In this document: piece after piece, positions 39,082 through 64,000 of the stretch
Position numbering within the stretch: position 1 is the first letter of the stretch
Layout: each line of letters begins with the position of its first letter
Source of the DNA: an uncultured Oscillospiraceae bacterium
GTDB lineage: Bacteria; Bacillota; Clostridia; Oscillospirales; Oscillospiraceae
Direction of reading: 5' to 3'
Assembly (NCBI GenBank): GCA_947629775.1
Contig: CANRFA010000002.1
Coordinates: forward strand, 1-64,000
Length of the DNA: 64,000 bases
Translations under genes and position numbers: made by a program
The notes under the pieces: generated by a model
What the model saw: only the letters and a program-made list of their open reading frames with translations
Told to the model about the DNA's origin: nothing
Databases searched by the model: none

Positions 39082-39197
39082 TACCTTATCCAGAGCAGCG
39101 GAGGGACCGGCCCCATGAAGCTGCGGCAACCTGCCCGGCGGGAGACGCCAGGGTAAGGTGCCAAATCCGGCGGAGAAGTTCGCAAAGATGAGGGTGT
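39082..39197 (+). ncRNA. SAM-I (S-box) riboswitch
   Basis: Conserved S-box blocks appear in order: CTTATCCAGAGCAG at the 5' side of P1/P2, GGAGGGACCGGCCC, ATGAAGCTGCGGCAACC, AGGTGCCAAATCC, and AAGATGAG at the 3' side. Binding SAM should favour the adjacent terminator and switch metK off when SAM is plentiful. Confidence 0.96.
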
Positions 39198-49399: not shown

Positions 49400-50188
49400 A
49401 TGACCATTCTGGACCAGCTGGCGGACCACGCCCGCCGCCGGGTAGCGGCGGACCGGGAGAGGATCAGCCTGGAGGCCATGCGGGAGCTGGCGGCACAGGG
49501 CGGGGCGGCGGACGGCGCAGCCTTCGCCGCCGCCTTGGGCCGGCCCGGCCTCTCCTTTATCTGCGAAGTGAAGCGGGCCTCTCCCTCCAGGGGGCTCATC
49601 GCCCCGGAGTTCCCCTACCGGGAGATCGCCCGCAGCTACGAGGAGGCCGGCGCGGACGCCGTTTCCTGCCTGACGGAGCCGAAGTGGTTCCTGGGGTCGG
49701 ATCAGATCTTTCGGGAGATCCGGTCGGAGATTGCCCTGCCCATGCTGCGCAAGGACTTTACGGTGGACGAATACCAGATTCTCCAGGCGAAGACCATGGG
49801 GGCCAACGCCGTGCTCCTGATCTGCGCCATTCTGGATACGAAGACCGTGGAGCGGTATCTGGAACTCTGCGGGTCCCTGGGACTGGCGGCCCTGGTGGAG
49901 ACCCACAACGAGGCGGAGATCGACTCCGCCCTCTCCGCCGGAGCGAAGATTCTGGGGGTCAACAACCGCAATCTGAAGGACTTTTCCGTGGACTTCTCCA
50001 ACGCCGCCCGGCTGCGGGACCGGATTCCTCCGGAGGTGCTCTATGTGGCGGAGAGCGGCGTCACCGGTCCGGAGGATGCCGCCGCGCTGAAGAAGATCGG
50101 GGCGGACGCGGTGCTCATGGGCGAGGTGCTCATGCGCGCCCGGGATAAAAAGGGCCTGCTGGCGGCCATGCGGGAGGCGGCGCAATGA
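49400..50188 (+). CDS. trpC: Indole-3-glycerol phosphate synthase
   Basis: Closes the indole ring from carboxyphenylamino-deoxyribulose phosphate. 262 residues, a single-domain TIM barrel. Catalytic motifs: SFICEVKRASPSRGLI (about 53-68), LRKDFTVDEYQI, LVETHNEAEIDSAL, GVNNRNLKDF and AESGVTGPEDAAAL. It starts 5 bp after trpD and overlaps trpF by 4 bp (ATGA). Confidence 0.96.
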   Translation: MTILDQLADHARRRVAADRERISLEAMRELAAQGGAADGAAFAAALGRPGLSFICEVKRASPSRGLIAPEFPYREIARSYEEAGADAVSCLTEPKWFLGSDQIFREIRSEIALPMLRKDFTVDEYQILQAKTMGANAVLLICAILDTKTVERYLELCGSLGLAALVETHNEAEIDSALSAGAKILGVNNRNLKDFSVDFSNAARLRDRIPPEVLYVAESGVTGPEDAAALKKIGADAVLMGEVLMRARDKKGLLAAMREAAQ

Positions 50189-50790
50189 CGAAGATCAAGA
50201 TCTGCGGCCTGTACCGTCCGGAGGACATCCGGGCGGTAAACGAAGCGGGACCGGACTTGTGCGGCTTCATTGTTCACTTTCCCCGCAGCCACCGCAGTCT
50301 GGAGCCGGACCGGGTGCGGGAACTGCGCCGGGGACTGCGGGAAGGCATCACACCGGTGGGAGTTTTTGTGGACCAGCCGGCGGAATACGTGGCGGAGCTC
50401 CTGAAGGACAATACCCTGTCTGTGGCTCAGCTCCACGGTCACGAGGACGAGGACTACATCGCCCGGCTGCGGGCCCTGGCCCCCGGACATCCCATCTGGA
50501 AGGCCTTCAAAGTGCGCACACAGGAGGACCTGGCGGCGGCCAACGCCTCGTCGGCGGACTGTGTGCTGCTGGATAACGGCTACGGCACCGGACAGGTGTT
50601 TGACTGGACCCTGGCGGGAGGGATTACCCGCCCCTTCCTGCTGGCGGGCGGCCTGACGCCGGAAAATATTCCCCAGGCGGTGGCGCAGCTTCACCCCATG
50701 GGACTGGATATTTCCAGCGGGGTGGAGACGGAAAAGCGGAAGGATCCGGACAAGATACAGGCGGCGGTAGCCGCCGCACGAAAGGAATGA
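50185..50790 (+). CDS. trpF: Phosphoribosylanthranilate isomerase
   Basis: Isomerises phosphoribosyl-anthranilate to CdRP. 201-residue TIM barrel. Start [20 protein letters not shown] with the catalytic Cys in KICGL; substrate loop [20 protein letters not shown]; phosphate site [14 protein letters not shown] and the C-terminal [20 protein letters not shown] (catalytic Asp). It is a separate gene here, not fused to trpC as in enterics. It overlaps trpC and trpB by 4 bp each. Confidence 0.95.
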
Positions 50791-51980
50791 GCACAGTGTC
50801 CAAGGGACGCTTTGGCATCCACGGCGGGCAGTACATGCCTGAGACCCTGATGAACGCGGTCATCGAGCTGGAGGAGGCCTACAATCACTACAAGGACGAT
50901 CCGGAGTTCAACCGGGAACTGACGGAGCTCTTTAACGAATATGCGGGACGGCCCTCCCGTCTGTATTTCGCGAAGCGCATGACGGAGGATCTGGGCGGGG
51001 CGAAGATCTACCTCAAGCGGGAGGATCTGAACCACACCGGCGCCCATAAGATCAACAACGTGCTGGGACAGGCCCTGCTGGCGAAGAAGATGGGCAAGAC
51101 CCGTCTCATCGCCGAAACCGGCGCGGGACAGCACGGCGTGGCCACCGCTACCGCCGCTGCCCTCCTGGATATGGAGTGCGTGGTATTCATGGGGGAGGAG
51201 GACACCCGCCGCCAGGCCCTGAACGTCTACAAGATGCGGCTGCTGGGGTCCAAAGTGGTGCCCGTGACCACCGGGACCGCTACCCTGAAAGACGCTGTCT
51301 CCGAGGCCATGCGGGAGTGGACCTCCCGTATCGCGGATACCCATTACTGCCTGGGGTCCGTCATGGGCCCCCATCCCTTCCCCACCATCGTCCGGGATTT
51401 CCAGTCTGTCATCTCCCGGGAGATTAAACAGCAGCTGCTGGAGAAAGAAGGCCGGCTGCCGGACGCCGTTCTGGCCTGTGTGGGCGGCGGCTCCAACGCC
51501 ATCGGCGCCTTCTACCACTTCATCCAGGATCCCTCCGTGCGGCTCATCGGATGCGAGGCCGCCGGACGGGGCGTGGACACCTTTGAGACCGCGGCGACCA
51601 TCGCCACCGGACGGCTTGGCATCTTCCACGGCATGAAGAGCTATTTCTGCCAGGACGAATACGGCCAGATCGCCCCGGTGTACTCCATCTCCGCCGGCCT
51701 GGACTACCCGGGCATCGGACCGGAGCACGCCTGGCTGCACGACATCGGCCGGGCGCAGTATGTGCCCATCACGGACGAGCAGGCGGTGGACGCCTTCGAA
51801 TACATGAGCCGCCTGGAGGGAATCATCCCCGCCATCGAGTCGGCCCACGCCGTGGCCTATGCCCGGGAACTGGCGCCCACCATGGAGCGGGATCAGATCA
51901 TTGTCATCAACATCTCCGGCCGGGGCGACAAGGACTGCGCCGCCATCGCCCGCTACAGAGGGGAGGAGCTTGCAGAATGA
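50787..51980 (+). CDS. trpB: Tryptophan synthase beta subunit
   Basis: A PLP enzyme joining indole and serine to tryptophan. 397 residues. PLP lysine is in [20 protein letters not shown] (Lys near 89). Other motifs: [36 protein letters not shown], and a C-terminal [15 protein letters not shown]. This is the TrpB1-type sequence normally paired with TrpA. It overlaps trpF and trpA by 4 bp each. Confidence 0.97.
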
Positions 51981-52753
51981 GCCGTATTCAGGAAGCCTTT
52001 GCCGCCGGTAAGGCCTTTATCCCCTTCATCACCTGTGGGGATCCGGATCTGGAGACCACGGCCGCTGCCGTGCGGGCCATGGCCCGTGCCGGCGCCAGTC
52101 TCATCGAACTGGGCATTCCCTTTTCGGATCCCACCGCGGAAGGCCCGGTCATCCAGGCCGCCAATGTGCGCTCCCTCAGCGCCGGCACCACCACAGATAA
52201 GATTTTTGACCTGGTACAGGATCTGCGCCGGGATGTGACCATCCCCATGGTCTTCATGACCTACGCCAATGTGGTATTCTCCTACGGGATGGACCGCTTC
52301 CTGTCCCGGGCCGCGGAAGTGGGGATGGACGGCCTCATCCTGCCGGACGTGCCCTTTGAGGAGAAAGAGGAATTCGCCCCCGCCTGCCGGGAGCACGGCC
52401 TGGAGCTGATCTCCCTGATCGCTCCCACCTCGGAAGGGCGTATTGCCAGCATCGCCGCCGCCGCCGAGGGCTTTGTCTACTGCGTCTCCTCTCTGGGCGT
52501 CACCGGTGTGCGCAGCGTGATCACTACGGATATCGGGGCCATGGTGGCCCTGGTGCGCAAGGCGAACCCGACCATTCCCTGCGCCGTGGGCTTTGGCATT
52601 TCCACGCCGGAGCAGGCGAAGAAGATGGCGGGACTCTCGGACGGCGCCATTGTGGGCAGCGCCATCGTGAAGCTGATGGCTCAGTACGGCCGGGAGGCCG
52701 TGCCCCATGTGGAGGCCTATGTCCGCAGCATGGTGGAAGCCGTAAAGAGCTGA
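51977..52753 (+). CDS. trpA: Tryptophan synthase alpha subunit
   Basis: Cleaves indole-glycerol phosphate to indole, which is channelled to TrpB. 258-residue TIM barrel. Catalytic glutamate in [20 protein letters not shown] (about 34-53), catalytic aspartate in [17 protein letters not shown] and [16 protein letters not shown], and the phosphate site [18 protein letters not shown]. Last gene of the operon; the following ~200 bp hold only GC-rich hairpins without a clear T-run terminator. Confidence 0.97.
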
Positions 52754-52956
52754 TCCTGCCCGCGAAGCGGACCGTTTCCGGGAGAAGCGGGGCCGTCCCC
52801 CGGACCGTGGAATGATCCTGCGGGGCGGGGCCGATCCGGTCCCGCCCCGCCTGCGGTCCGACGGTACGGCCGCAACGGGAACCGCCGGAGCAGGAAGACA
52901 GATGCCGGATCCCCCGGGAAACAGGGAAGGCCGGCGGATCGGGAGGAGGATCGGAC

Positions 52957-53610
52957 TTGAAGCGCAGCGCCTATGTCCCCCGGCTGCTGGAACTGACGCT
53001 TGGTCAGTTCTTTACTGCGCTTGGGGTCGTCTTCATGCTGCAGGCCAACCTGGGTCTGGAGCCGTGGAGCGTTCTGCAACAGGGCCTCCACCATGCCCTG
53101 GGGATCTCCTTCGGGACGGCGGTTGTGGTGGTCAGTACCTCCATCATCCTCCTGGATCTTCTGCTGGGGGAGCGCATCGGGCTGGGGATGGTGTTCAGCG
53201 CCCTGCTCTGCGGGCCCATCATCGACGTTATTACCGCTCTGGACCGGATTCCGCAGCAGACGAAGCTGCTGCCTGGTCTGGCCTTTCTGCTGCTGGGGCT
53301 GGAGCTGCTGGCCTTCGGAACCTGGCTGAGCATGAAGGTGGGACTCGGGTGTGGAGCCCGGGACGCCCTGATGGTGGCCATGGCCAGGCGGACCGGAATC
53401 ACGGTGGGGATCTGCCGGGTGACCTCGGAGCTGACCGCCACCCTTCTGGGCTGGCTGCTGGGAGGCCAGGTGGGAATCGGGACCATTGTGAGTGCGGCGG
53501 GGATCGGAGCGCTGATTGAGCTCAATTTCCGTCTGCTGCGCTACCAGGCGTTGGAGGAGAAGCACGAGTACCTCTCGGATACCTTCCGCCATCTTGTCCT
53601 GAGGCGGTGA
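52957..53610 (+). CDS. YczE/YitT-like integral membrane protein
   Basis: 217 residues with about five spans. It matches the YczE/YyaS/YitT type: start RLLELTLGQFFTALGVVFML, then ANLGLEPWSVLQQGLHHALG, and LGCGARDALMVAMARRTGIT. The role of these proteins is not established; YczE is linked to surfactin and bacillaene production in Bacillus. The start appears to be TTG 52957 with GGGAGGAGG at 7 bp. It lies between the trp operon and the LacI gene with which it converges. Whether it reads through from the trp operon is unclear. Confidence 0.75.
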   Translation: MKRSAYVPRLLELTLGQFFTALGVVFMLQANLGLEPWSVLQQGLHHALGISFGTAVVVVSTSIILLDLLLGERIGLGMVFSALLCGPIIDVITALDRIPQQTKLLPGLAFLLLGLELLAFGTWLSMKVGLGCGARDALMVAMARRTGITVGICRVTSELTATLLGWLLGGQVGIGTIVSAAGIGALIELNFRLLRYQALEEKHEYLSDTFRHLVLRR

Positions 53611-53684
53611 ACCTGCCCCCGCAGGGAAAACCCCACGGCAGGTGTTGGATGCATGGCAGAGGAAACGAATTTTCGAAAAGAAGA

Positions 53685-53714
53685 ACCCCCGGAGCAGACC
53701 CCGGGGGTATTTTC
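53685..53714. terminator. Bidirectional terminator between the YczE-like and LacI genes
   Basis: ACCCCCGG (53685-53692) pairs with CCGGGGGT (53701-53708), 8-nt loop. ATTTTC follows on the plus strand and TTCTTCTTTTC on the minus strand. Confidence 0.8.
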
Positions 53715-54723
53715 ATGGCAGAAAGCTGCCGCGCAGCTGCACCAGAGGCTCCAGCGTGACGCGGACGGGTGTCTCCGGCCGTTCCCGCAGCAGGCGGAAC
53801 ATGGTGGTTACAACGGTCCGGTCCAGTTCCGGGGGAACGGAGACGCAGCTGACAGGAGGATGGAGGAACTCCATGGCCTCCGGGTCCTGCTCTCCCACGC
53901 ACAGGAGCTCCACGTCATCGGGAACCCGGACGCCCCGGTTCAGCAGCGCCTGGAGACAGCCCTGGACCATGCGGTCGCTTTCACAGAAGAGGACAGGCGG
54001 CAGGTGTTCCGCCTGGACGAAGCGCTCTGCGGCTCTGGCACCGCCGACGATGGTGTCCGGCCCGGAGAAGATGCGCTCTGCGGGCACCGGGATCCCGTTT
54101 TCGTTGCAGACCTGCAGGAAGGCGGCGACACGTTCCGATGTCTCTGCGCCCCGCGCCTCCGTGCAGATCACCGCGCAGGACCGGCAGCCCTTCCGGACCA
54201 GCAGATCCGCTGCGACGGCGCCCAGCCGGTCGTCCCGGACGCCTGCGGAGGACCAGCGGTCGCTTTCCCGGTTCAGCAGCAGTACGGGAACCGGAAGTTC
54301 CTTACCCTCCAGTTGCTCCAGTTCCCGCCCGTTCGTAGTCTCCAGAATGACGCCTGCGTATTGCCGGCACAGCGCGGGTTCCAGGGCATCCTCCAGGTGT
54401 CCGCCGGCATAGAGCCGCACGGACAGTCTGCAGCCGGGATTTTCCTCCCGCAGAACGCTCTGGAGCCGGGAGAGACGGATCCCAAGGAGGTCCGGCCGGT
54501 ACTCGAGCGGCCAGCAGAGCCCGAGGACCGGCCGGGGTTCGTTCGGCTTGCGCAGCAGGCGGGCCGCCTGATTGGGGACATAGTGCAGCTGTTCCATGGC
54601 GCGCTGCACCCGCTGTATGGTTTCCCGGGAGATCCGGCGCTCTACTGCCTGACCGTTGAGGATGATGGAGACCGTTGTGGGAGAGACGCCAGCCAGCTTC
54701 GCGACATCGCTCTGAGTGGGCAT
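53713..54723 (-). CDS. LacI family transcriptional regulator
   Basis: 336 residues: N-terminal helix-turn-helix SDVAKLAGVSPTTVSIILNG (about 5-24), hinge helix YVPNQAARLLRKP (about 48-60), and a C-terminal periplasmic-binding-like sensor domain (for example YAGVILETTNGRELEQLEG and PPVLFCESDRMVQGCLQALL). ATG 54723 has GGGAGGAGG; a 33-residue extension upstream covers the promoter region and is rejected. No sugar-uptake genes flank it, so its target is likely elsewhere or is itself. It has a consensus promoter. Confidence 0.88.
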   Translation of the reverse strand: MPTQSDVAKLAGVSPTTVSIILNGQAVERRISRETIQRVQRAMEQLHYVPNQAARLLRKPNEPRPVLGLCWPLEYRPDLLGIRLSRLQSVLREENPGCRLSVRLYAGGHLEDALEPALCRQYAGVILETTNGRELEQLEGKELPVPVLLLNRESDRWSSAGVRDDRLGAVAADLLVRKGCRSCAVICTEARGAETSERVAAFLQVCNENGIPVPAERIFSGPDTIVGGARAAERFVQAEHLPPVLFCESDRMVQGCLQALLNRGVRVPDDVELLCVGEQDPEAMEFLHPPVSCVSVPPELDRTVVTTMFRLLRERPETPVRVTLEPLVQLRGSFLP

Positions 54724-54790
54724 ATGACTTTCCTCCTCCCGAGGCCGGAGTTCCGGCGCAGGCCGATAATATCCTTTTCCTTCCGTTTCC

Positions 54791-54818
54791 ATTATAACGA
54801 ACTGGAACGATCTGTCAA
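54791..54818 (-). promoter_or_regulatory. Promoter of the LacI regulator gene
   Basis: On the minus strand, TTGACA (54818-54813), 16 bp, TATAAT (54796-54791), both consensus, 67 bp before the ATG. The region from 54819 to 55012 upstream shows no gene. Confidence 0.85.
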
Positions 54819-55012
54819 TCAATCTGCCTTAAATGGTATCAACAGGGTTGGCATGTTCTCCTGCACAGAACCGATAAAAGGACGGAAACAGGAGGTTTAG
54901 CGGGAGAAAGCGGAAGATGCAACGTTAAACCTATGGAGAACAATGGAGGACTCCGCAGTCGGGCCACACAGCCTGTGCGCGGGAGACAGGAAGAAATACC
55001 GCCGCTGAGAGC

Positions 55013-55046
55013 GGACAAAGGGGCCGGAACGGTGTGTTCCGGCCCC
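55013..55046 (-). terminator. Terminator of the MATE-MerR operon
   Basis: An 11-bp perfect stem (55020-55030 with 55036-55046) followed by TTTGTCC on the minus strand. Confidence 0.75.
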
Positions 55047-55055
55047 TGAAATTCC

Positions 55056-55895
55056 TTATGGCTGTCCGGCGGGTTCCACCGGAATCCGGATCTCCGTGAT
55101 GTACAGATCCGGGTTGTCTGTGAGTCCCTGGTCGATGAGGGTAACCTCCAGGGAGGGGCCGGAGGGAGTCAGGCGTTCCTGCGACACGCGTTTCATCAGG
55201 CGGGCGTACCAGGGGGCCGCCTGAACATGGGTGCCCACGAAGCGCACGGTGAGACAGGTCTGCTCCGGAACGTGGACCACCTCTCCCAGGTAATCCTCCT
55301 CGGGGTCCAGCAGCAGATAAACGTGATCGTAGACCGAGTATTCGCCCCGCAGCAACCGCTCCGGATTGATGCCCACCCCGATCTTCCCCAGAAAGATCAT
55401 GGCCTCGGGCTGTCGGCTCTCCAGCTGGCGGATGGAGGGCTCCAGGTCCAGTCCGTCCGATGTGATGGTCAGAGGGCCAGGGACGGAGGCCAGCCGCCGG
55501 GGCGGAACCGGCCCCAGAGAGATTTCCCCCGGATGGGAGGAGGCGGCGTCCTCCAGCTGCCGCAGGCGGTTGTCCACCTTCTGCCGGAGGATCTCCAGGT
55601 TGTGCTGCTTTTCTTCGATGCGGCTCTGCTGCTGGCGCAGAAGGATCCGGATCCGGTCCAGATCCCGGCTGGCGAGAAACTCCGCGATGTCGTCCAGCGG
55701 CGTGTCCAGCAGTCGCAGGTAGCGGATGGTGTTGAGGCACTCGAACTGCCTGGTACTGTAGTAGCGGTAGCCCGTTACGGGGTCCGTGTACTCCGGAGTC
55801 AGCAGGCCCCTGGCTTCGTAGAACCGCAGAGCGCTGATGCTGAGTCCGAAGAGCCGGGATACCTGCCCGATGCGAAAGAGATCCTTACGTTCCAA
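55056..55895 (-). CDS. MerR family regulator with GyrI-like effector domain (BmrR type)
   Basis: 279 residues: MerR helix-turn-helix IGQVSRLFGLSISALRFYEA (about 9-28), with GLLTPEYTDPVTGYRYYST; a long dimerisation coiled coil (~75-115: DLDRIRILLRQQQSRIEEKQ); then a C-terminal GyrI/AraC-effector-like domain for binding drugs (~140-270). No cysteine cluster for metals is present. It overlaps the end of the MATE gene by 11 bp, so it is co-expressed. The promoter upstream has the 19-bp spacer typical of MerR control, implying autoregulation and drug-induced efflux. Confidence 0.88.
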   Translation of the reverse strand: MERKDLFRIGQVSRLFGLSISALRFYEARGLLTPEYTDPVTGYRYYSTRQFECLNTIRYLRLLDTPLDDIAEFLASRDLDRIRILLRQQQSRIEEKQHNLEILRQKVDNRLRQLEDAASSHPGEISLGPVPPRRLASVPGPLTITSDGLDLEPSIRQLESRQPEAMIFLGKIGVGINPERLLRGEYSVYDHVYLLLDPEEDYLGEVVHVPEQTCLTVRFVGTHVQAAPWYARLMKRVSQERLTPSGPSLEVTLIDQGLTDNPDLYITEIRIPVEPAGQP

Positions 55896-57243
55896 GGGGC
55901 GTTCCCTCCTGAGACTGCCGGCGCCGCAGCCAGGTATAAGCGATCAGACAGACGAGGACGGAGACTCCGGAGCCGGTGGCGGTGGCCAGCCCCATGGGCA
56001 GCAGAGTCTGCGGGAAGAAGCGGGAGGCCGCCCAGGCCAGGGGAACCCGGGCCAGGCAGATGGAGATCACATTGTGCAGGAAGGAGAGTCCGGAGCGGTT
56101 GCAGGCGCAGAAGTAGCCGCTGAAGCAGAAGTGGACGCCGGCCAGCACGCAGTCCCAGACATAGCCCCGCAGGTACTGCCCGCCGGCGATCATCACGCCG
56201 ATGTCTTTGTCCCGGACAAAGAGTCCCACCATGGGTTCCGCGGCGAACTGAACCACAAAGGCCACGCAGAGCCCGAAACTCACCGCAATGCGGATGGCGT
56301 AGAGAAGGGTCTGGCGGGCGCGCTGCAGCTGCCCAGCCCCCAGGTTCTGGGCGCAGAGGGCGGAGACGGTGGAGAGCATGGAGGAGGGGACCAGGAAGAG
56401 GAAGGAGATGATCTTCTCCACGATGCCTACGGCGGCGGAGTCGGTGAGGCCCCGGCTGTTGGCGATGGCGGTGATGATCAGGAAAGAGATCTGAATGAAG
56501 CCGTCCTGAGCTGCCACCGGCAGCCCCACGGCGAGCAGGCCGCACATCACGTCCGCCCGGGGCCGGAGGTGTTCCCGGCGCAGGGAGATCCCGGAGTGGC
56601 TGCGGCGGATGACCGCCAGGGAGACCACGACGCTGATGGCCTGGGCCAGAACGGTGCCCAGAGCGGCGCCGGCGGGCCCCATCCGCAGGCATCCGATAAA
56701 CAGGAAGTCCAAGGCAATGTTGGCGGCGCAGGCCACGGCCACAAAGTACATGGGGCTTCTGGAGTCTCCCAGCCCCCGGAAGATGGAGGCGATGACGTTG
56801 TAGGCGGTGATGAAGGGAATGCCCAGGAAGCAGATGGTGAGGTAGGTGGAGGCTCCATCTACCGCTTCCTCCGGCGTGCGGACCAGCAGGGCGACGGGCC
56901 GGGCCAGAGTGGTCAGCACGACCGTGAGAACCAGGGCCAGGCCGAGAAAGAGGGTGACGGTGTTGCCGATGGAGCGGGAGGTCTCCTCGTCCTGGCGGGC
57001 TCCCACGCAGCGTCCGATGCGCACGGTGGAACCCATGGCGAGTCCCACGAGCATGACGGTGAGCATGTGCATCACCTGGCTGCCGATGGCCACGGCGGTG
57101 GTGCTGGCGACCGGGTCAAAGCGCCCGATGATGTACAGATCCGCCATGCCGTACAGGGTCTGGAGAAAGTAGGAGAGGAGATAGGGCAGCGAGAAGGAGA
57201 GAATGGTCCGGGAAACACTGCCGGTAGTGAGATTTTTCTGCAT
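55885..57243 (-). CDS. MATE family multidrug transporter
   Basis: About 452 residues and 12 spans, of the same superfamily as the transporter at 23036 but a distant paralogue. Typical N-terminal motif SVSRTILSFSLPYLLSYFLQ, and later FRGLGDSRSPMYFVAVACAA, MCGLLAVGLPVAAQDGFIQI and SALCAQNLGAGQLQRARQTL. The start is taken at ATG 57243, 12 bp after GGAAGG; an ATG 12 bp upstream sits directly against that site. It is first in the MATE-MerR operon, so the MerR-type regulator probably senses its export substrates. Confidence 0.9.
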   Translation of the reverse strand: MQKNLTTGSVSRTILSFSLPYLLSYFLQTLYGMADLYIIGRFDPVASTTAVAIGSQVMHMLTVMLVGLAMGSTVRIGRCVGARQDEETSRSIGNTVTLFLGLALVLTVVLTTLARPVALLVRTPEEAVDGASTYLTICFLGIPFITAYNVIASIFRGLGDSRSPMYFVAVACAANIALDFLFIGCLRMGPAGAALGTVLAQAISVVVSLAVIRRSHSGISLRREHLRPRADVMCGLLAVGLPVAAQDGFIQISFLIITAIANSRGLTDSAAVGIVEKIISFLFLVPSSMLSTVSALCAQNLGAGQLQRARQTLLYAIRIAVSFGLCVAFVVQFAAEPMVGLFVRDKDIGVMIAGGQYLRGYVWDCVLAGVHFCFSGYFCACNRSGLSFLHNVISICLARVPLAWAASRFFPQTLLPMGLATATGSGVSVLVCLIAYTWLRRRQSQEGTPLGT

Positions 57244-57294
57244 GTGGCGGCACATCCTTCCGGGCCGCCGGGCTTCCGGCGGCGGAGCTGTCCT

Positions 57295-57325
57295 ATTCTA
57301 AACTCTATAGCAGGTTGAGAGTCAA
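57295..57325 (-). promoter_or_regulatory. MerR-type promoter with 19-bp spacer
   Basis: On the minus strand, TTGACT (57325-57320), a 19-bp spacer, TAGAAT (57300-57295). The spacer has ACTCT and AGAGT arms separated by 11 bp, an inverted repeat centred between -35 and -10. The long spacer with a dyad is the recognised architecture for MerR activators. Confidence 0.85.
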
Positions 57326-57355
57326 GAGGCCGGCAAAATTTTTTTAAATTCATGG

Positions 57356-57384
57356 TTGACAGGGGCGGAGAACTGTGTTAATAT
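57356..57384 (+). promoter_or_regulatory. Promoter of the leader peptide-metY transcript
   Basis: TTGACA (57356-57361), 17 bp, TAATAT (57379-57384). An inverted repeat begins at its last base. Confidence 0.8.
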
Positions 57385-57408
57385 ACCAACCAACCCGGTA
57401 GGTTGATA
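57384..57408. promoter_or_regulatory. Inverted-repeat operator overlapping the metY start site
   Basis: TACCAACC (57384-57391), a 9-bp spacer, GGTTGATA (57401-57408); seven of eight arm positions match. It covers the expected transcription start, the usual place for a repressor. A CymR-like Rrf2 regulator or another sulfur regulator is a possibility only. Confidence 0.55.
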
Positions 57409-57431
57409 CCTTTGAAAGGAGGGGAAGCGGA

Positions 57432-57542
57432 ATGAAGAACGATTTTCTGGAGTACATCCGCAATAACTTCCGCTGCGGTCGAATGTGCAACGCCCGGACT
57501 GTCTGTGAGGCCGGACGCGCTCTGCCGCGCCCTCGGGGATGA
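57432..57542 (+). CDS. 36-residue Cys-containing leader peptide
   Basis: A short frame with an excellent ribosome site (GAAAGGAGGGG then ATG 57432). The peptide begins MKNDFLEYIRNNFRCG and has Cys codons at positions 15, 19 and 25 (57474, 57486 and 57504), with a Met codon at 18 next to Cys 19. The downstream half is Arg/Pro-rich and ends at TGA 57540-57542. Its codons 21-24 overlap the 5' arm of an RNA hairpin that competes with a terminator. It lies between the metY promoter and metY, so it looks like a regulatory leader peptide sensing cysteine (or Met/Cys) supply. It could also be a small functional peptide. Confidence 0.6.
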   Translation: MKNDFLEYIRNNFRCGRMCNARTVCEAGRALPRPRG

Positions 57543-57604
57543 ACCCTCTCCGGGAGAATGCCATGCCTTACACAGTCCGGGTGCCCCCAGGCCTCGGGCT
57601 TTTT
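57493..57604 (+). terminator. Attenuator: competing antiterminator and terminator before metY
   Basis: CCCGGACTGT (57493-57502) can pair perfectly with ACAGTCCGGG (57572-57581). Alternatively AGTCCGGG (57574-57581) pairs with CTCGGGCT (57593-57600, two wobbles), directly followed by TTTT. The two structures share 57574-57581 and are mutually exclusive. The direction of ribosome control is inferred and not settled. Confidence 0.55.
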
Positions 57605-57651
57605 CCATGCCCCGAATGATACAAATCGGATTTTAAAGGAGAATTATTACC

Positions 57652-58935
57652 ATAAGTAATTACAGATTTGAGACCCTGCAGCTCCATGTCGGCCAGGAGC
57701 AGGCGGACCCCGCCACGGATTCCCGGGCGGTGCCCATCTATCAGACCACCAGCTATGTCTTCCACAACTCTGCCCACGCCGCCGCCCGCTTCGGACTGGC
57801 GGACTCCGGCAACATCTACGGCCGGCTGACCAACTCCACGCAGGACGTGCTGGAGAAGCGCCTGACCGCGCTGGAGGGCGGCGTGGCGGCTCTGGCCACC
57901 GCGTCCGGCGCCGCCGCCATCACCTACACGATTCAGGCCCTGGCCCAGGCGGGGGATCACATTGTCGCCCAGAAGACCATCTACGGTGGCAGCTACAACC
58001 TGCTGGCCCACACCCTGCCTCAGTTCGGTGTGAGCACCACCTTCGTAAATGCCCACGATCTGGCTGAGGTGGAGGGGGCCATCCAGGACAACACGAAGGC
58101 CATCTATCTGGAGACCCTGGGCAACCCCAACAGCGATATTCCGGATATCGACGCCATCGCGGCCATCGCCCATAAGCACGGCCTGCCTCTGGTGATCGAC
58201 AACACCTTCGGCACCCCCTACCTCATCCGGCCCATCGAGCACGGCGCGGACATCGTGGTCCACTCTGCCACCAAGTTCATCGGCGGACACGGCACCACCC
58301 TGGGCGGCATCATCGTCGACTCCGGAAAGTTCGACTGGAAGGCCAGCGGGAAGTACGCCCCCATCGCGGAAGCCAATCCCAGCTATCACGGCATCTCCTT
58401 CGTGGACGCCGTGGGCCCCGCCGCTTTTGTCACGTACATCCGGGCCATCCTCCTGCGGGATACCGGCGCCACCATCTCCCCCTTCAACGCCTTCCTGCTC
58501 CTGCAGGGCGTGGAGACCCTGTCCCTGCGGCTGGACCGTCACGTGGAGAACACGAAGAAGGTGGTGGAGTTCCTGGCGAACCATCCCCAGGTGGAGCACG
58601 TCAATCACCCCAGTCTCCCGAACCATCCGGACCACGCCCTCTACGAGAAGTACTTCCCCAACGGCGGCGGTTCCATCTTCACCTTCGAGATCAAAGGCGG
58701 CCAGGAGGAGGCCCATAAGTTTATCGACAGCCTGGAGATCTTCTCCCTGCTGGCCAACGTGGCGGATGTGAAGTCTCTGGTGATCCACCCCGCCACCACC
58801 ACCCACTCCCAGCTCTCTCCCGAGGAACTGGAGGATCAGGGCATCCACCCCAATACGATCCGCCTGTCCATCGGCACGGAGCACATCGACGACATCCTGG
58901 AGGACCTGGAGAAGGGTTTCGCCGCCATCCGCTGA
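57652..58935 (+). CDS. metY: O-acetylhomoserine sulfhydrylase (start codon ATA or downstream GTG)
   Basis: A Cys/Met metabolism PLP enzyme, most like O-acetylhomoserine aminocarboxypropyltransferase, which makes homocysteine from O-acetylhomoserine and sulfide. From 57652 it is 427 residues, the normal length. Family N-terminus is kept ([20 protein letters not shown]), then [14 protein letters not shown], and the PLP lysine in [17 protein letters not shown]. The C-terminus ends [20 protein letters not shown]. The usual first Met is replaced by ATA at 57652, 10 bp after AAAGGAG. In-frame ATT codons also exist at 57643 and 57646. The first conventional in-frame start is GTG 57730, which would delete 26 conserved residues. 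Confidence 0.88.
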
Positions 58936-59033
58936 GGTTCTCTGTTCCCTGCCTTCTTCCGGTGGAAGACGGACGGTGATGTTCCGCACCTCCGGTTTCC
59001 TGCCGTCCTGTCCGCACACCGGGGATGGCCATG

Positions 59034-59079
59034 GAAAAACGCGCCCGGATTCCCTTTTGCGCAGGGGTCCGGGCGCGTT
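59034..59079. terminator. Shared terminator between metY and clpC
   Basis: A 12-bp stem AACGCGCCCGGA / TCCGGGCGCGTT (59038-59049 with 59068-59079), with T-rich ends on both strands (TTTTT on the minus strand). It serves convergent metY and clpC. Confidence 0.8.
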
Positions 59080-59083
59080 CCGT

Positions 59084-61528
59084 TTACGCGGAGCGGGAGG
59101 AACGGACCGGCTGAAGGGCCAGGGTTCCGTCCTGGAGCGTCAGCCGCAGGGCATCCCCCGGGCCCAGTTCGCCGGACAGAAGGAGATCGGCGGCCGGATC
59201 CTCCACAAGACGGGTTACCGCCCGGCGCAGAGGGCGGGCACCCTGTTCACGGCTTCCCTCCCGGGCCAGCCGCCGTACTGCCTCTTCGGGAGCGTCCAGC
59301 GTGACTCCGTGGGCGGCAAGCCGCACTTCCGCCTCCCGGAGCAGACTGCGGGCAATGGAGGTCAGAGCGTTCGGGCTCAGGGGATGGAAGACCAGAAGGG
59401 CGTCCAGTCGGTTGAGAAACTCCGGGGAAAAGGCGGCGGAGGCGTCCCGGAGGACTTCCTTCTCCACCTCTTCCCGGGCGGCGTCCCCGCCGGGGGAGAA
59501 GCCCAGCCGCTGCTCCCGGGCAAACCGGCGGGCTCCCAGGTTGGAGGTCATGATAAGGATGGTATTGCGGAAGTCCGTACGCCGGCCTTGGGCGTCCGTG
59601 AGAACCCCTTCTTCCATGACCTGCAGCAGAAGGGACCAGATGTCCCGGTGGGCCTTCTCCAGTTCGTCCAGCAGTACCACGGACCAGGGACTGCGGCGCA
59701 CCCGCTCCGTAAGCTGTCCGCCCTCTTCGTGGCCAACGTAACCCGGCGGAGAACCCAGCAGGCGGGAAACGGAGTGGGACTCCATATACTCGGACATGTC
59801 GAAACGCAGCAGAGCGTCTTCGCTGCCGAAGAGGGTGGCGGCCAGGGCCCGGCACAGCTGGGTCTTGCCTACGCCGGTGGGACCCAGCAGGAGAAAACAG
59901 CCGGCGGGGCGCCGGGGATCCCGCAGCCCCAGACGGCCGCGGCGGATGGCCTGGGCTACCGTCCGCACTGCCGGGTCCTGGCCCAGAATCCGCTGCCGCA
60001 GGGTCTCTTCCAGGGTTCGCAGGGCCTCCCGGTCCGCCTCGTCCGGATCCGTAACGGGTACGCCGGTCCACTGGGAGAGAACCTGCCGGATATGGCAAGG
60101 TTCCACCCGACGGGGGCCCTGGGTGGAGAGCCAGCGGCTGCGTTCCTGATGGAGCTGACGGCGGAAGCTGTCTTCGGCATCCCGATAGAGGGCCGCCTGC
60201 TCGAAGTCCTGGTCCTGGATGGCCCGGTTCAGCTGACGGCCCGCCTGGGCCGCCCGTTCCTCCAGGGTTTTCAGTTCGGCTGGCAGGGTACGCCGGGCCA
60301 GCCGGGCCAGGGAAGCGGCTTCGTCTACCAGATCGATGGCCTTGTCCGGCAGAAACCGCTGGGGGAGGTAGCGTATGGAGAGGTCCACCGCCGCCTCCAG
60401 AGCGTCGTCCGTAATGGTCAGCCGGTGGTGGGTTTCATAGCGGCTGCGCAGCCCCTTGAGGATGGCCAGGGAATGTTCACGGTCCGGTTCCCGGACCGTG
60501 ACGGGCTGAAAGCGGCGCTCCAGGGCGGCGTCCTTCTCGATGTGCCGGCGGTACTCTTCCAGCGTAGTGGCCCCGATGACCTGAAATTCGCCCCGGGCCA
60601 GGGCGGGTTTCAGAATGTTGGAGGCGTCGATGGCTCCTTCTGCGGAGCCGGCCCCCACAATGGTGTGCAGTTCGTCCAGGAAGAGGATCACGTTGCCGGC
60701 CCGTCGGACCTCTTCCAGAACCCGCTTCAGCTTTTCCTCAAACTCGCCCCGGTACTTGGTGCCCGCCACCATGGCGGACAGATCCAGCGCGCAGATCCGA
60801 CGGTCCAGCAGGTGGGCGGGAGCGGTCTGCTCTGCGATGGCCAGGGCCAGACCCTCCACTACGGCGGTTTTACCCACCCCGGGCTCTCCGATCAGGGCAG
60901 GGTTGTTTTTCGTGCGGCGGGAGAGGATACGGATCACCCGGTCCAGTTCCGCCTCCCGCCCGATCACCGGGTCCAGACGTCCCTCCGCGGCCATGCGGGT
61001 CAGGTCCCTGGCGCACTGGTCCAGCTGACGGGTTTCCTGCCCGGCGCGCCCGTCGCCCTCCCGGGGACGGGTGCGGGAGTAAGGCAGTTCCTCGCCCCCA
61101 AGAGAGGCGGAGACGCAGCGGTAGAGTCCCCTCCGATCGATGCCGCAGTCCCCCAGCAGGCGAACGGCGGAGCAGTCCGGGGCATCCAGCAGCCCCAGCA
61201 GCAGATGTTCGGAGTTGATGAGCCGCTGGCCCAGCCGACGGCTCTCTCCCACGGCGCTCTGAATGGCCTGGCAGCAGGAGGGCGTCAGCCCCTGCTGGAG
61301 AGAGCGGACAGGAACTCCCACCCCTACCCGCTGGGCGATGGCTGCCTCCAGGACGGAGGCCCCCGCACCGGAGCGACGCAGGGCGCAGGATGCGGGGCTG
61401 AACTCCTGGCCCGCCAGGGCCAGAAGCAGGTGTTCGCTGCCCACGTAGCTGTGCCCGAGACGGGCGGCGTGGTCCCGGGCCAGGCGGATGGCGGAGAGGG
61501 CCGTGGAGGTAAAACGGCGTTCTTCCAT
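59084..61528 (-). CDS. clpC: ClpC-type AAA+ unfoldase
   Basis: 814 residues. ClpC unfolds proteins for ClpP. Order: N-terminal Clp repeat domain (~1-145, FTSTALSAIRLARDHAARLG); first AAA+ with GEPGVGKTAVVEG and ILFLDELHTIVG; an M/UVR-type linker (DQDFEQAALYRDAEDSFRRQ); second AAA+ with LGPTGVGKTQLCRALAATLF and VVLLDELEKAH; arginine-finger region SPEFLNRLDALLVFHPLS. ATG 61528 follows GAGGTG. The usual ctsR-mcsA-mcsB genes are not upstream, so it is solitary here. Confidence 0.94.
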   Translation of the reverse strand: MEERRFTSTALSAIRLARDHAARLGHSYVGSEHLLLALAGQEFSPASCALRRSGAGASVLEAAIAQRVGVGVPVRSLQQGLTPSCCQAIQSAVGESRRLGQRLINSEHLLLGLLDAPDCSAVRLLGDCGIDRRGLYRCVSASLGGEELPYSRTRPREGDGRAGQETRQLDQCARDLTRMAAEGRLDPVIGREAELDRVIRILSRRTKNNPALIGEPGVGKTAVVEGLALAIAEQTAPAHLLDRRICALDLSAMVAGTKYRGEFEEKLKRVLEEVRRAGNVILFLDELHTIVGAGSAEGAIDASNILKPALARGEFQVIGATTLEEYRRHIEKDAALERRFQPVTVREPDREHSLAILKGLRSRYETHHRLTITDDALEAAVDLSIRYLPQRFLPDKAIDLVDEAASLARLARRTLPAELKTLEERAAQAGRQLNRAIQDQDFEQAALYRDAEDSFRRQLHQERSRWLSTQGPRRVEPCHIRQVLSQWTGVPVTDPDEADREALRTLEETLRQRILGQDPAVRTVAQAIRRGRLGLRDPRRPAGCFLLLGPTGVGKTQLCRALAATLFGSEDALLRFDMSEYMESHSVSRLLGSPPGYVGHEEGGQLTERVRRSPWSVVLLDELEKAHRDIWSLLLQVMEEGVLTDAQGRRTDFRNTILIMTSNLGARRFAREQRLGFSPGGDAAREEVEKEVLRDASAAFSPEFLNRLDALLVFHPLSPNALTSIARSLLREAEVRLAAHGVTLDAPEEAVRRLAREGSREQGARPLRRAVTRLVEDPAADLLLSGELGPGDALRLTLQDGTLALQPVRSSRSA

Positions 61529-61651
61529 GTGATTCACCTCATAATGGTATGGAACTCCCCGGGAAAGGGTCGGAATCGGGCGGAAAGACCGCCTGTTCGG
61601 ACGCCTCCGGAAGGTCACCTGAAGCTTACCCGAAATTTCTGAAATTTAGCA

Positions 61652-61679
61652 TTGATTTTTCTCGATGATCTGTTAGAAT
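61652..61679 (+). promoter_or_regulatory. Promoter of the ferredoxin gene
   Basis: TTGATT (61652-61657), 16 bp, TAGAAT (61674-61679), 31 bp before the ATG. A GAAATTT pair (61632-61638, 61641-61647) lies just upstream. Confidence 0.65.
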
Positions 61680-61709
61680 AGGGGTACATTCTTAGGGAGG
61701 TGTACATCA

Positions 61710-61880
61710 ATGGCATATGTCATCGGCGATTCCTGCATCAGCTGCGGCTCCTGCGCGGATGCCTGCCCCGTCGGCGCGATCGCCCAGGGTGCGGATCACT
61801 ATGAGATCAACGCGGACGCCTGTCTGGACTGCGGCTCCTGCGCTGATACCTGCCCCATGAGCGCCATCGCTCAGGGCTGA
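61710..61880 (+). CDS. 2[4Fe-4S] ferredoxin
   Basis: 56 residues, a clostridial-type low-potential electron carrier. Two cluster motifs: CISCGSCADACPVGAIAQG (about 9-27) and CLDCGSCADTCPMSAIAQG (about 38-56), each CxxCxxCxxxCP. ATG 61710 follows GGGAGGTG. It is short and has an exact internal repeat from an ancient duplication. It is a monocistronic gene with strong promoter and terminator. It is a reasonable acceptor for pyruvate, indolepyruvate and other ferredoxin oxidoreductases. Confidence 0.96.
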   Translation: MAYVIGDSCISCGSCADACPVGAIAQGADHYEINADACLDCGSCADTCPMSAIAQG

Positions 61881-61891
61881 GTGTCCTGTAA

Positions 61892-61930
61892 AAAAGCAGC
61901 GTCGGTATGCCCGACGCTGCTTTTGTCTTT
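61892..61930. terminator. Bidirectional terminator after the ferredoxin gene
   Basis: A 14-bp stem AAAAGCAGCGTCGG / CCGACGCTGCTTTT (61892-61905 with 61911-61924). T-runs follow on both strands, serving the convergent SLH-GH25 gene also. Confidence 0.9.
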
Positions 61931-61944
61931 TCTGGGGTCTGCGT

Positions 61945-63459
61945 TTACTTCCGGTACTCGGAGAAATCCGTCAGACAGATATCCATATCCACTTTGCCGC
62001 TGATACCCGGTACCGTGCCGGAGCTGGAGTACTGCCACATCTGATACTTGTAGCGGAAACTGGAGGGCTTCCAGTTTTTCGTGTAGTGGGCCAGCCAGAA
62101 GGGCCAGTCCTGCAGGCGGGACAGATCCAGGTCCGCGTATACCTTGCTGGGGCTGCCATAGGTCATGGGCAGGTAACCCGCTTTCTCGATGGTACGGCAG
62201 AAAGCGATGGCGCAGCGGGTCATGACTTCGCCGCTGACGTTGTGGCTGCGGGAGTTGGACTTGCTGACCTCTTCCCAGTCAAAGACCACCGGGTAGGTGA
62301 CGTCGTAGTTCTCGATCCAGCGCAGCACCTGGTTGGCCTCTTCAATGGCCTCCTCCTCGGTAATGGCCTGGGAGAAGAAGTAGACGCCCACCTGAATGCC
62401 GTTGGCGAGGGCGTTCTCGATGTTGTAGCGGAAGGTGGAGTCCTGCTTGATGGTGGCGTACACATAGCCGCGGTAGCCACACCGGAGCATGGCGAAATCC
62501 ACGCCGGCGGCCTTGACCTTGGCCCAGTCGATCTTTTCCTGATAGGAAGAGACGTCTATGCCCTTGTAGCAGGGAACGGGATTCTGCTCATCCGGGTCCT
62601 CATACACCAGGAAGCCGCCCCTGGTCTTGAAATAATCCGAGTTATAGGGGTTGGACGGAATGGGCTTGGATTCGGGCTCCGGCTCGGGCTCAGGCTCCGG
62701 TTCGGGTTCGGGCTCGGGTTCCGGTTCCGGCTCCGGTTCCGGCTCAGGCTCGGGTTCCGGTTCAGGTTCCGGTTCGTCTGCGGGGGCCTCCAGGTAGGCG
62801 AAGTACCGGGAGAGCAGGACGACGGACTCGGCCTGGGTACAGATGCTCTGGGGAACAAAATCGCCGCTGTCCGTGCCGATTACCAGACCGGTGGAGTGCA
62901 GCCAGTTGACGGCTTCCTCTGCCCAGGAAGAGATCTTATCCTGATCCGGGAAGGGCTCGGGGGCCTTTTCGCCCTTTTTCGGCGTTACGGGGTCCGGAGA
63001 ACCCATGAAGTGCCACAGAATGACGGCGAACTGCTCCCGGGTGACGGGGTCTTCCGGGCCGAAGCGCTGTTCGCTGTAGCCTTCCATGATCTTCTGGCGC
63101 CAGACCCAGATGATGCCGCTGGTGTACCAGGAGCCGGGGTAGACGTCCTGATAGGGGTAATAGCGGGTGCCGGTCAGCTTGGGGTTGCCGACGGCGCCGT
63201 AGAAGGCAACGGCGATCTGGGCGCGGGTCATGGGTTCGTCCGGCTGGAAGCGCATGTGGTAGCTGGTGTTGATGAGCCCCCGGTTTTCACAGTCCTCCGC
63301 CGCTTCCGTGTACCAGGTGGAGCCGGAGGACGTCTGGGAGGCGCCTGTCTGTTCCAGGGTGGAATTGCCTGCGGCGAAAACGGGGGCCGTGGCGCTGAAG
63401 AGGGTGACTGCCGCCAGAAGAGCGGCCATGAGGGAGGATGGCGTTCTTTTTTTTCGCAT
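61945..63459 (-). CDS. Secreted SLH-GH25 lysozyme with a Pro-Glu linker
   Basis: 504 residues, exported: signal peptide 1-30 ([13 protein letters not shown]). Three SLH-type repeats (~45-225: [40 protein letters not shown], and [19 protein letters not shown]) anchor it to the wall. A linker of 17 Pro-Glu pairs follows (~229-263), then the GH25 (Chalaropsis-type) lysozyme domain: [20 protein letters not shown], and the catalytic DxE of [11 protein letters not shown], ending [20 protein letters not shown]. It would cut the beta-1,4 bonds of peptidoglycan at the cell surface. ATG 63459 follows AAAGGA. Confidence 0.93.
62671..62775 (-). repeat. Hexanucleotide-like repeat encoding a Pro-Glu linker
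   Basis: 17 consecutive Pro-Glu codon pairs plus one extra Glu codon. Codons vary (CCG, CCC, CCT with GAG, GAA), so the DNA is not a perfect tandem array. The protein repeat is a rigid, acidic spacer between wall-binding and catalytic modules. Confidence 0.9.
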
Positions 63460-63529
63460 TTTGATGTCCTTTCTCGGGGCTCCGTATGGGGCGGGCCCTG
63501 TGTGTGTATTCCGGGCCGGAGGTGCCCGG

Positions 63530-64000
63530 TCAGTGCTGATACTCAAACTCCAGGTCGTAGAGAGACACAATGTCCCCGTCCTGGATCCCCATTTCCTCCA
63601 GACGGTCGAAGAGGCCGGACTGGCGCAGAATCCGGTCGAACCAGTTGCGGCTCTCGAAGTCGGAGAAGTTGACATTGGCGATGAGACGCTGGATCCAGGG
63701 AGCCTCCACCACCCAGGTCTCATCATACCGTTCTATGCGCACCTCGCCCGAAGTGTCCACCTGGGGCTCCGGCGCCACATAGTCGGGGGCGTAGATTTCC
63801 ACCGGGGGCAGGCTCTGCAGTTCCCGGGCCGCCCGGCGCATGAGTTCGGACACTCCCCTGTGGGCCGCCGCCGAGATTTCGAAGACTTCCAGGCCCTTCT
63901 GTTCCACGTGGGCCCGGAAGCGCTCCAGCAGGGAGGGATCCGTGAGGATGTCCGTTTTGTTGGCCGCGACCAGCATCTTCCGGGCGGCCAGCTGAGGGGA
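63530..64000 (-). CDS. obg: GTPase Obg, C-terminal part (5' end outside window)
   Basis: 157 codons are visible from the window edge to the stop at 63530. The G4 motif NKTD (VAANKTDIL) and a G5-like [13 protein letters not shown] near the start, then the Obg C-terminal domain ([20 protein letters not shown] and [15 protein letters not shown]), identify Obg/CgtA rather than Era or EngA. Obg acts in late 50S ribosome assembly and stress control. The Obg fold and G1-G3 lie beyond the window. Confidence 0.9.

Follow-up and report, generated by a model that had tools for sequence, protein, structure and literature searches.

TnaC, ErmCL and SecM are arrest-peptide leaders, and in Arabidopsis a SAM-dependent nascent-peptide arrest at CGS1 controls methionine synthesis. 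The element described here, a short leader upstream of metY in an uncultured Oscillospiraceae bacterium and in its relatives, resembles TnaC, ErmCL, SecM and, in the part of its published account that was available, CliM of Clostridia, in its conserved nascent chain, its short ORF and the UGA that often follows the key residue; conserved residues (R10, N12, G16, R17 and M18) lie near the proposed stall site. As with ErmC, one type of the leader is predicted to open a hidden downstream ribosome site, which is not the output in our locus. We know of no motif common to the metY leader and TnaC, ErmCL, SecM or CliM, and the leader differs from these in its metY, metQ or metN context, in its fixed CGA codon, and in that its arrest is putative. 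With CGS1 it shares the control in cis of a methionine-pathway enzyme by a translated peptide, although the CGS1 arrest peptide lies within the enzyme, whereas the metY leader is a separate, upstream, bacterial ORF.

The leader also resembles the trp and his attenuators, and the cysS motif uORFC-8-2 of Rhodobacterales as far as the accessible portion of its account describes it (PMC8632094), in combining a leader ORF, sensor codons and a shared RNA arm. Conservation at the peptide level and a strong ribosome site suggest that the ORF before the operon is translated, and exclusive hairpins sharing an arm were found in our locus and in 26 others that were modelled, 19 loci being aligned. In contrast to the trp and his type, there is no run of sensor codons, but usually one internal Met codon after a fixed CGA, and scattered Cys codons; the peptide is strictly conserved; many members would use pairing with the downstream Shine-Dalgarno (SD) sequence as their output; and most loci antiterminate by default when the RNA is modelled free of ribosomes. 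We therefore assign the leader neither to the attenuators nor to the arrest leaders, as it has no sensor-codon run and its arrest is putative.

In the window, by which we mean the whole stretch of 64,000 nucleotides that was analysed, the gene downstream of the leader is metY, encoding O-acetylhomoserine sulfhydrylase (57652..58935; TIGR01326, 633 bits, above cut-off), which lies on the + strand, as do its promoter, leader and hairpins. Its ribosome site, read from the sequence, is AAAGGAGA (57635..57642). The start codon at 57652-57654 is ATA where the relatives that were read have ATG (ACCATAAGT vs ACCATGAGT); either the draft assembly is wrong here, or metY has a rare start codon by which its translation is lowered. 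A motif scan identified a candidate sigma-70-type promoter at 57356..57384 (TTGACA-17-TAATAT, with TG 5' of the -10; 0.5 expected from shuffles), a position which puts the leader close to the 5' end of the metY transcript. An inverted repeat, CAACC-CGGTA-GGTTG (57391..57405), lies by the expected transcript start and may be an operator or a 5' hairpin. Similar palindromes, of the type (TTAA)CCAAC-N5-7-GTTGG(TTAA), were read by eye upstream of the leader in L013, L033 and L045, just 3' of the -10, and look like candidate operators; leaderless metY copies have, around their -35, repeats like CCTATTGAC-N3-GTAGG that resemble operators as well.

The leader ORF, MKNDFLEYIRNNFRCGRMCNARTVCEAGRALPRPRG (57432..57542), has 36 codons and a UGA stop and belongs to a conserved family. 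It is preceded by the ribosome site GAAAGGAGG (57414..57422), 9 nt upstream of its ATG. Family alignment places the conserved core in codons 12-18 (N F R C G R M; 57465..57485), within which fall the UGC codon of Cys15 (57474..57476) and the CGA-AUG dicodon of Arg17-Met18 (57480..57485), constant across the family and our proposed sensor; the UGC codon of Cys19 (57486..57488) follows. Arg17 is the only one of the seven Arg codons of this leader to be CGA. The frame, its strong ribosome site and its Cys codons 15, 19 and 25 are thus as the preliminary description had reported them. The leader RNA folds more stably than shuffled sequences (z -2.7, 0/200 as good).

We investigated the distribution of the peptide, whose family-wide core is F..L.R.N[FYW]R[FCYN]GRM. 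The window peptide alone retrieved matches in 12/300 genomes of the family (E 0.001), and profile searches retrieved matches in 57/295 genomes of the order (E 0.01) and 27/341 of the class (E 0.001), the window's own genome being counted in each, while in a sample of the phylum the sole match among 299 genomes was the window's own (E 0.001). About 30 of the 57 matches in the order had loci and were read, the rest, including the weakest, being outside that reading. A DNA pattern recovered at least 119 stretches from named genomes, of which about a dozen look by eye like chance matches; the pattern behind our set of 153 loci misses the Y/W variants. Among 80 record titles listed, most were of Clostridia (Oscillospiraceae, Ruminococcus, Lachnospiraceae, Christensenella). 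N[FYW]R.GRM persists through changes of its codons, indicating selection at the peptide level. The peptide ends are variable, many copies stopping directly after GRM and others running on as GRMCRC, GRMCCC or a longer tail. In L183 the core and tail are duplicated in tandem within one leader (NFRCGRMCCSCSNS twice).

The expectation that relatives would carry a conserved short peptide before metY was borne out: the peptide is conserved, mostly before metY, and also before metQ and metN. By simple patterns, the next gene in the 153 loci was metY in 118, a lipoprotein gene in 11 and metN in 2, with none recognised in 22, and these 22 leader-like loci were left out of the class counts below. Profile scans of selected downstream genes identified MetQ/NlpA at L057, L059, L127, L164 and L188, and MetN at L049 and L180. 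The pattern labels are imperfect: L180 was called a lipoprotein gene from a wrong start and is MetN by profile, the lipoprotein label of L043 is doubtful, and L127, L164 and L188 had no label from patterns. The gene downstream of L037 gave a weak SsuA-like match and that of L190 only weak ABC-type matches, and an FAD protein gene lies 532 nt from L045. The L042 leader, with a GRMLSSR-type tail, precedes a URO-D/MtaA-like methyltransferase gene and not a methionine gene, and one genome (G221) has three leader copies, L044 before metY, and L038 and L045 before genes without a clear partner.

We could match the leader to no Rfam, Pfam or NCBIfam family. Rfam gave no match in window positions 50000-64000 at E up to 1, nor at the leader in 20 loci, and on these grounds a SAM riboswitch or T-box at metY was rejected. 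Pfam and NCBIfam scans of 14 of the 16 members of one peptide alignment (A1) gave only chance matches (best E 0.16 and 0.21). A full-text literature search, in a corpus from which bioRxiv and most subscription journals are absent, found no paper with the core peptide strings NFRFGRMC, NFRFGRM, NFRCGRM, NFRYGRM, RANFRFGR or RSNFRCGR; the titles and beginnings of abstracts listed contained nothing on a metY leader peptide, a coverage that does not amount to proof that it is unpublished. A single T-box was identified, in another locus (L166 3317-3569), some 2 kb 5' of where its leader starts (near 5516).

A SAM-I riboswitch (S-box, RF00162) does occur in the window, at 39083-39194 (78.2 bits), directly before metK (39271) and with a terminator-like hairpin; it is the only S-box match in this genome and, like the metY leader, serves a gene of the methionine cycle. 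S-box matches were found in 60 of the 70 genomes searched, 55 of them above the cut-off, and among the 31 S-box loci that we examined, metK follows in 29 (that of the window included), two have no assigned gene and none precedes metY. Since the S-boxes examined precede metK, metY seems to have a separate sensor. We rejected the idea that the leader replaces the S-box, as S-boxes are common both in genomes with a leader match and in those without.

Downstream of the core, two mutually exclusive hairpins can form. Arm A, the 5' arm of the antiterminator (CCCGGACTGT; 57493..57502), begins 10 nt and ends 19 nt downstream of the A of Met18, and pairs perfectly over 10 bp with arm C (ACAGTCCGGG; 57572..57581), as had first been reported. 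Alignment adds an inner antiterminator helix, in which strand B1 (GAGGC, one G-U included; 57507..57511) pairs with B2 (GCCTT; 57565..57569). Arm C is common to the antiterminator and to an intrinsic terminator at 57575..57604 (stem 57575-57599 followed by TTTTT at 57600-57604; -14.9 kcal/mol), so that folding bears out the terminator ending at 57604 and its use of the same 3' arm. A simple terminator scan missed it (0 found, 1.8 expected from shuffles).

The switch is present in 28 loci, that of the window included, which we call the terminator type. Nineteen of these were aligned (A4: 20 references left after excluding eight of the 28, minus L035, which is close to L036). The antiterminator is 91.1% paired in these 19 loci, with seven pairs changed on both sides (0/500 shuffles), whereas slid versions of the pairing are only 31-47% paired, and RNAalifold recovers it unaided. 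For the five base pairs of the terminator, pairing reaches 94.7%, but these are nearly invariant and hence show no covariation. Of the covariation proposed as a check on both hairpins, the antiterminator thus gave it and the terminator gave conservation instead. By comparative sequence evidence, the mutually exclusive hairpins before metY are a conserved leader.

We modelled the choice between the hairpins in 27 of the 28 loci (L135 was dropped) by masking the ribosome footprint and refolding the RNA, a result that depends on the footprint edge assumed (+10 to +16). At edge +15, the terminator probability in the window was 0.00 with no ribosome, 0.00 with codon 15 or 16 in the P site (P15, P16), 0.01 at P17, 0.99 at P18 and 0.00 with the ribosome at the stop codon; the corresponding means over 27 loci were 0.22, 0.18, 0.26, 0.66, 0.94 and 0.33. 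In the window, P18 gave 0.18 or less at edges +10 to +13 (0.02 or less at +10 to +12), and P19 gave 0.91 or more from edge +11. When AUG18 is in the A site (P17), the mean is 0.16-0.28 at edges +10 to +12 and 0.82 at +16, with the window at most 0.08 up to edge +15 and 0.85 at +16. The terminator wins without a ribosome in six of the 27 loci (L050, L070, L080, L098, L104 and L170) and is not the default in the other 21; L041 never forms it well. In the model, therefore, the window terminator would form once the ribosome covers codons from about 18-19 on.

These results bear on how a stall had been proposed to act. A modelled ribosome at codon 25 covers the antiterminator arm and gives the terminator, as suggested. 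A stall at codon 15 does leave that arm free, but without specificity, the empty leader and the ribosome at the stop codon giving the same value (0.00). The preliminary description could not say why the terminator should prevail at high cysteine; the model narrows this question to ribosomes over codons from about 18/19, without settling it.

The abrupt switch at codon 18 could also be read as an effector-dependent arrest with negative feedback, in which a pathway product (methionine, SAM, cysteine or homocysteine), bound in the exit tunnel by the ..R.NFR.GRM chain, would halt the ribosome when Met18 occupies its P site. Once arrested, the ribosome would cover arm A, giving the terminator and turning metY off, and a ribosome without effector would pass, leaving the antiterminator. 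The modelled values at edge +15, in the window (0.00-0.01 from P15 to P17, 0.99 at P18, 0.00 at the stop codon) and in the mean at P18, are those expected of such an arrest, as are the strong conservation of the peptide and the non-terminator default in 21/27 loci, which feedback control needs. UGA is found at TnaC-like termination arrests, and in our leaders it is commoner where the stop directly follows Met18 (24/28, vs 34/72 among later stops; p 6e-4). We nevertheless regard this reading, the main rival of the explanation that we prefer below, as the less likely of the two. With edges +10 to +13 the window still antiterminates at P18, SAM is already sensed by the S-box at metK, and two further observations, described below, stand against it: the sign of control in the second type of leader, and the additional CGA codons in the tails, which an arrest would leave unexplained.

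The 103 loci without the terminator switch form this second type, which is defined by the absence of the switch alone; a separate terminator may be present in a few members with long spacers (e.g. L182). Among the 94 second-type loci with metY, Met18 lies 49-107 nt upstream of the metY start in 90, and a match to the downstream ribosome site (GAAAGGAAA/G) is frequent in leader codons 12-16 (AAYTTCCGNTTYGG). The native duplexes averaged -8.31 kcal/mol, compared with -7.28 for cross-paired ones (87 pairs, 0/2000 permutations). The wobble base of N12 tracks the SD base (T/A 30, T/G 0, C/A 7, C/G 8; p 3e-5, kinship uncorrected), and a compensatory N12-SD pair was identified within one genus (L066 vs L063, L069 and L073). 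In 69/93 loci the SD is better hidden by the native codons than by synonymous replacements (p 1.6e-6, kinship uncorrected). The match is broken where Arg14 is AGA or AGG (11/98 loci) or residue 13 is Tyr or Trp.

We modelled the accessibility of the SD in 98 of the 103 loci, those with a distance of at least 110 being left out, and counted opening in 90 metY loci. Mean accessibility over the 98 loci was 0.28 without a ribosome, 0.49-0.54 from P11 to P18, about 0.45 at P19-P20 and 0.36-0.40 from P21, and a ribosome opens the SD by more than 0.1 in 63/90 loci and closes it in four. In the model, SD hiding is thus a feature of many second-type relatives, and is not universal. In three leaderless metY copies of one genus (L004, L010 and L015), the SD lies in a small local hairpin (e.g. 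GGGATATTTCCC directly before ATG).

The two outputs constrain where the ribosome would be held. At P18 and edge +15 neither sign fits both of them, and we rejected as general rules both that a stall is OFF in all members, the second type giving the opposite sign, and that a stall at P18 is ON in all members, which the terminator type does not bear out when the footprint edge is long. The arrest described above would meet the same difficulty, as a second-type ribosome at codon 18 would open the SD of the same gene. Because P18 at edge +15 gives the terminator in one type and SD opening in the other, agreement between the outputs requires that the ribosome halts no later than with AUG18 in its A site. 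A hold at or before CGA-AUG would be ON in both types, in the terminator type with the shorter footprints, and we consequently favour the sensing of Met- or Cys-tRNA starvation.

The codons of the core point to the same place. In an alignment of 22 rows (A3, some of them typed trimmed or altered), R10, N12, G16, R17 and M18 are invariant; L005, with Ile18, was the sole exception noted at Met18. Arg17 is CGA in 80/80 loci found by protein search (53 + 27), a count from which loci found by the DNA pattern, which itself required CGA at Arg17, were excluded, these being used for tails and structures. Other core Arg codons are seldom CGA (Arg14 10/46, Arg10 1/46), and its share of Arg codons elsewhere is 2-6% (34/1432 in downstream genes, 862/14508 in 718 long ORFs). 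In the tails after Met18, Arg codons are CGA in 30/40 cases before Cys or Met and in 2/101 before other residues (Fisher 9e-20, kinship uncorrected). The 30 cases, of which one (L183) is a duplication of the core, span 16 tripeptide contexts, and thus do not represent one inherited tail, kinship again uncorrected. Among the 718 control ORFs of at least 250 aa from the same loci, CGA was found in 45/539 Arg codons before Cys or Met, compared with 817/13969 before others, indicating that CGA before Cys or Met is not a general codon-pair habit of these loci; downstream genes alone (3/7) are too few to weigh. The rule is weaker in the head of the leader, before Met18, where Arg before Cys or Met is CGA in only 7/33. 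Three terminator-type leaders (L070, L080 and L170) have an extra CGA-AUG-UGA at their end.

CGA is decoded by the inosine form of the ACG anticodon, via inosine-adenine wobble. We found the Arg anticodons ACG, CCG, GCG, TCT and CCT, and no TCG, among the 19 tRNA loci scanned in the genome of the window, which are most but not all of its set, and so CGA should be read there by the inosine form of ACG. ARAGORN places a tRNA-Arg with anticodon GCG, unusual beside ACG, at L271 1671-1746 of this genome. In the Salmonella his leader, the available part of one study describes CGA as poorly translated (PMC4046918). We infer that CGA is a brake placed 5' of sulphur amino acid codons and, as CGA is fixed at Arg17 and precedes Cys and Met in the tails, that the sensor looks like CGA-AUG together with CGA-UGU dicodons.

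The constancy of CGA could instead reflect RNA pairing or an RNA-binding site (CGAAUG, CGAUGU) and not decoding, and by eye, uncounted, GAAUG or GAUGU could pair with spacer CAUUC or ACAUC in some second-type loci. This is very unlikely, given that AGA would preserve the GA-AUG pairing and yet occurs at Arg17 in 0/80 loci, and that terminator-type leaders keep CGA without that spacer pairing. Still less credible is a role of the peptide as a small trans-acting protein, with the RNA structures secondary. Strong residue conservation and good ribosome sites and start codons would be expected of such a protein, but many copies end at residue 18 (28/103), Met18 lies within 49-107 nt of the metY start in nearly all second-type metY loci (90/94), the RNA pairs with the downstream SD or the terminator, and the codon of Arg17 is fixed.

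Plain attenuation by cysteine, the mechanism originally suggested, would have a stall at Cys15, and not at Cys25, leave the antiterminator free. The modelled ribosome does keep the antiterminator at 15 and give the terminator at 25, Cys occupies position 15 in 23/28 terminator-type leaders (and 19 in 3/28), and in the second type it is very frequent at 19, 21 and 22 (57, 28 and 18 of 103). However, residue 15 is Cys in only 6/103 second-type leaders; across 131 loci, Phe occupies the position in 96, compared with 29 for Cys and 6 for Tyr, and 6/15 more distant copies have Asn; Cys codons are absent near the core of many leaders, 28/103 of the second type stopping right after Met18; and Cys15 alone gives no reason for the terminator to form when cysteine is plentiful. 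We consider this mechanism unlikely and find no support for Cys15 as the sensor in the form proposed, since residue 15 is more often Phe and the constant element is CGA-AUG (Arg17-Met18). The remainder of that proposal is supported: the leader is conserved, its hairpins are exclusive, and very probably it is ribosome-mediated and concerns sulphur amino acids.

That this is a real, conserved and ribosome-dependent regulatory leader we hold to be almost certain. The explanation that we prefer for its function, with a probability of roughly one half (about 0.48), is a cis-acting leader-peptide sensor of sulphur amino acid supply, in which a shortage of Met- or Cys-tRNA turns the gene on. The peptide family, the codon bias, the exclusive and covarying RNA structures and the gene context are shown by sequence; that tRNA charging is what is sensed, where the ribosome stalls and which sign the control has, we infer. 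The ribosome would meet the brake codon CGA directly before AUG18 and, in relatives, often again before UGU. When Met- or Cys-tRNA is short it would advance no further than codon 18 (with C15 or AUG18 in the A site), and the nascent chain ..R.NFR.G, which is conserved, probably helps to hold it there. Arm A of the window would then be free to pair with arm C once this is transcribed, no terminator would form and metY would be made. When both tRNAs are plentiful, ribosomes would run over codons of about 18-27 and cover arm A during transcription of arm C and the terminator, and transcription would stop at 57604. This OFF state needs ribosome traffic over arm A, since the window antiterminates without a ribosome or with one at the stop codon. 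In many relatives without a terminator, leader codons 12-16 would pair with the downstream SD, and a ribosome at codons 11-18 would open it. A ribosome past CGA-AUG would turn both outputs OFF, except in the stop-codon state of the terminator type. The placement of Cys codons, at 15 in the terminator type and at 19, 21 and 22 in the second, fits an output that is ON at or before the dicodon and OFF past it.

Several observations sit less easily with this sensor of tRNA supply. A leader usually has a single internal Met codon, those second-type leaders that end at Met18 have no Cys codon there, Arg codons before Cys or Met in the head are mostly not CGA, and the peptide is conserved beyond the need of a plain tRNA sensor. 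For a ribosome that has AUG18 in its A site, the terminator already reaches a mean probability of 0.66 at +15 and 0.82 at +16, and P18 at +15 gives the terminator in the model (mean 0.94, window 0.99) yet opens the SD in the second type. SD hiding is not universal (opening of more than 0.1 in 63/90; AGA or AGG at Arg14 in 11/98), the window model antiterminates with no ribosome or a stop-codon ribosome, and in 6/27 loci the terminator wins even when no ribosome is present. Kinship among the genomes also inflates the p values given above.

More broadly, and more tentatively, it is quite conceivable that these leaders sense methionine and cysteine across the class Clostridia, through dicodons in which CGA in the P site makes the ribosome hypersensitive to the loss of that particular charged tRNA, with two unrelated outputs, and alongside the S-boxes of metK. 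The sensor would be a slow codon directly before Met and Cys codons, which seems to detect a shortage of these amino acids. If true, this would add a codon-level rule, of a brake codon 5' of a sensor codon, that is directly testable and can be searched for in other leaders, and the natural pair of outputs on one sensor means that the sign of control can be settled by comparison. It would also explain how methionine synthesis and uptake are controlled in many gut Clostridia, which among the matches listed are mostly known from metagenome assemblies only.
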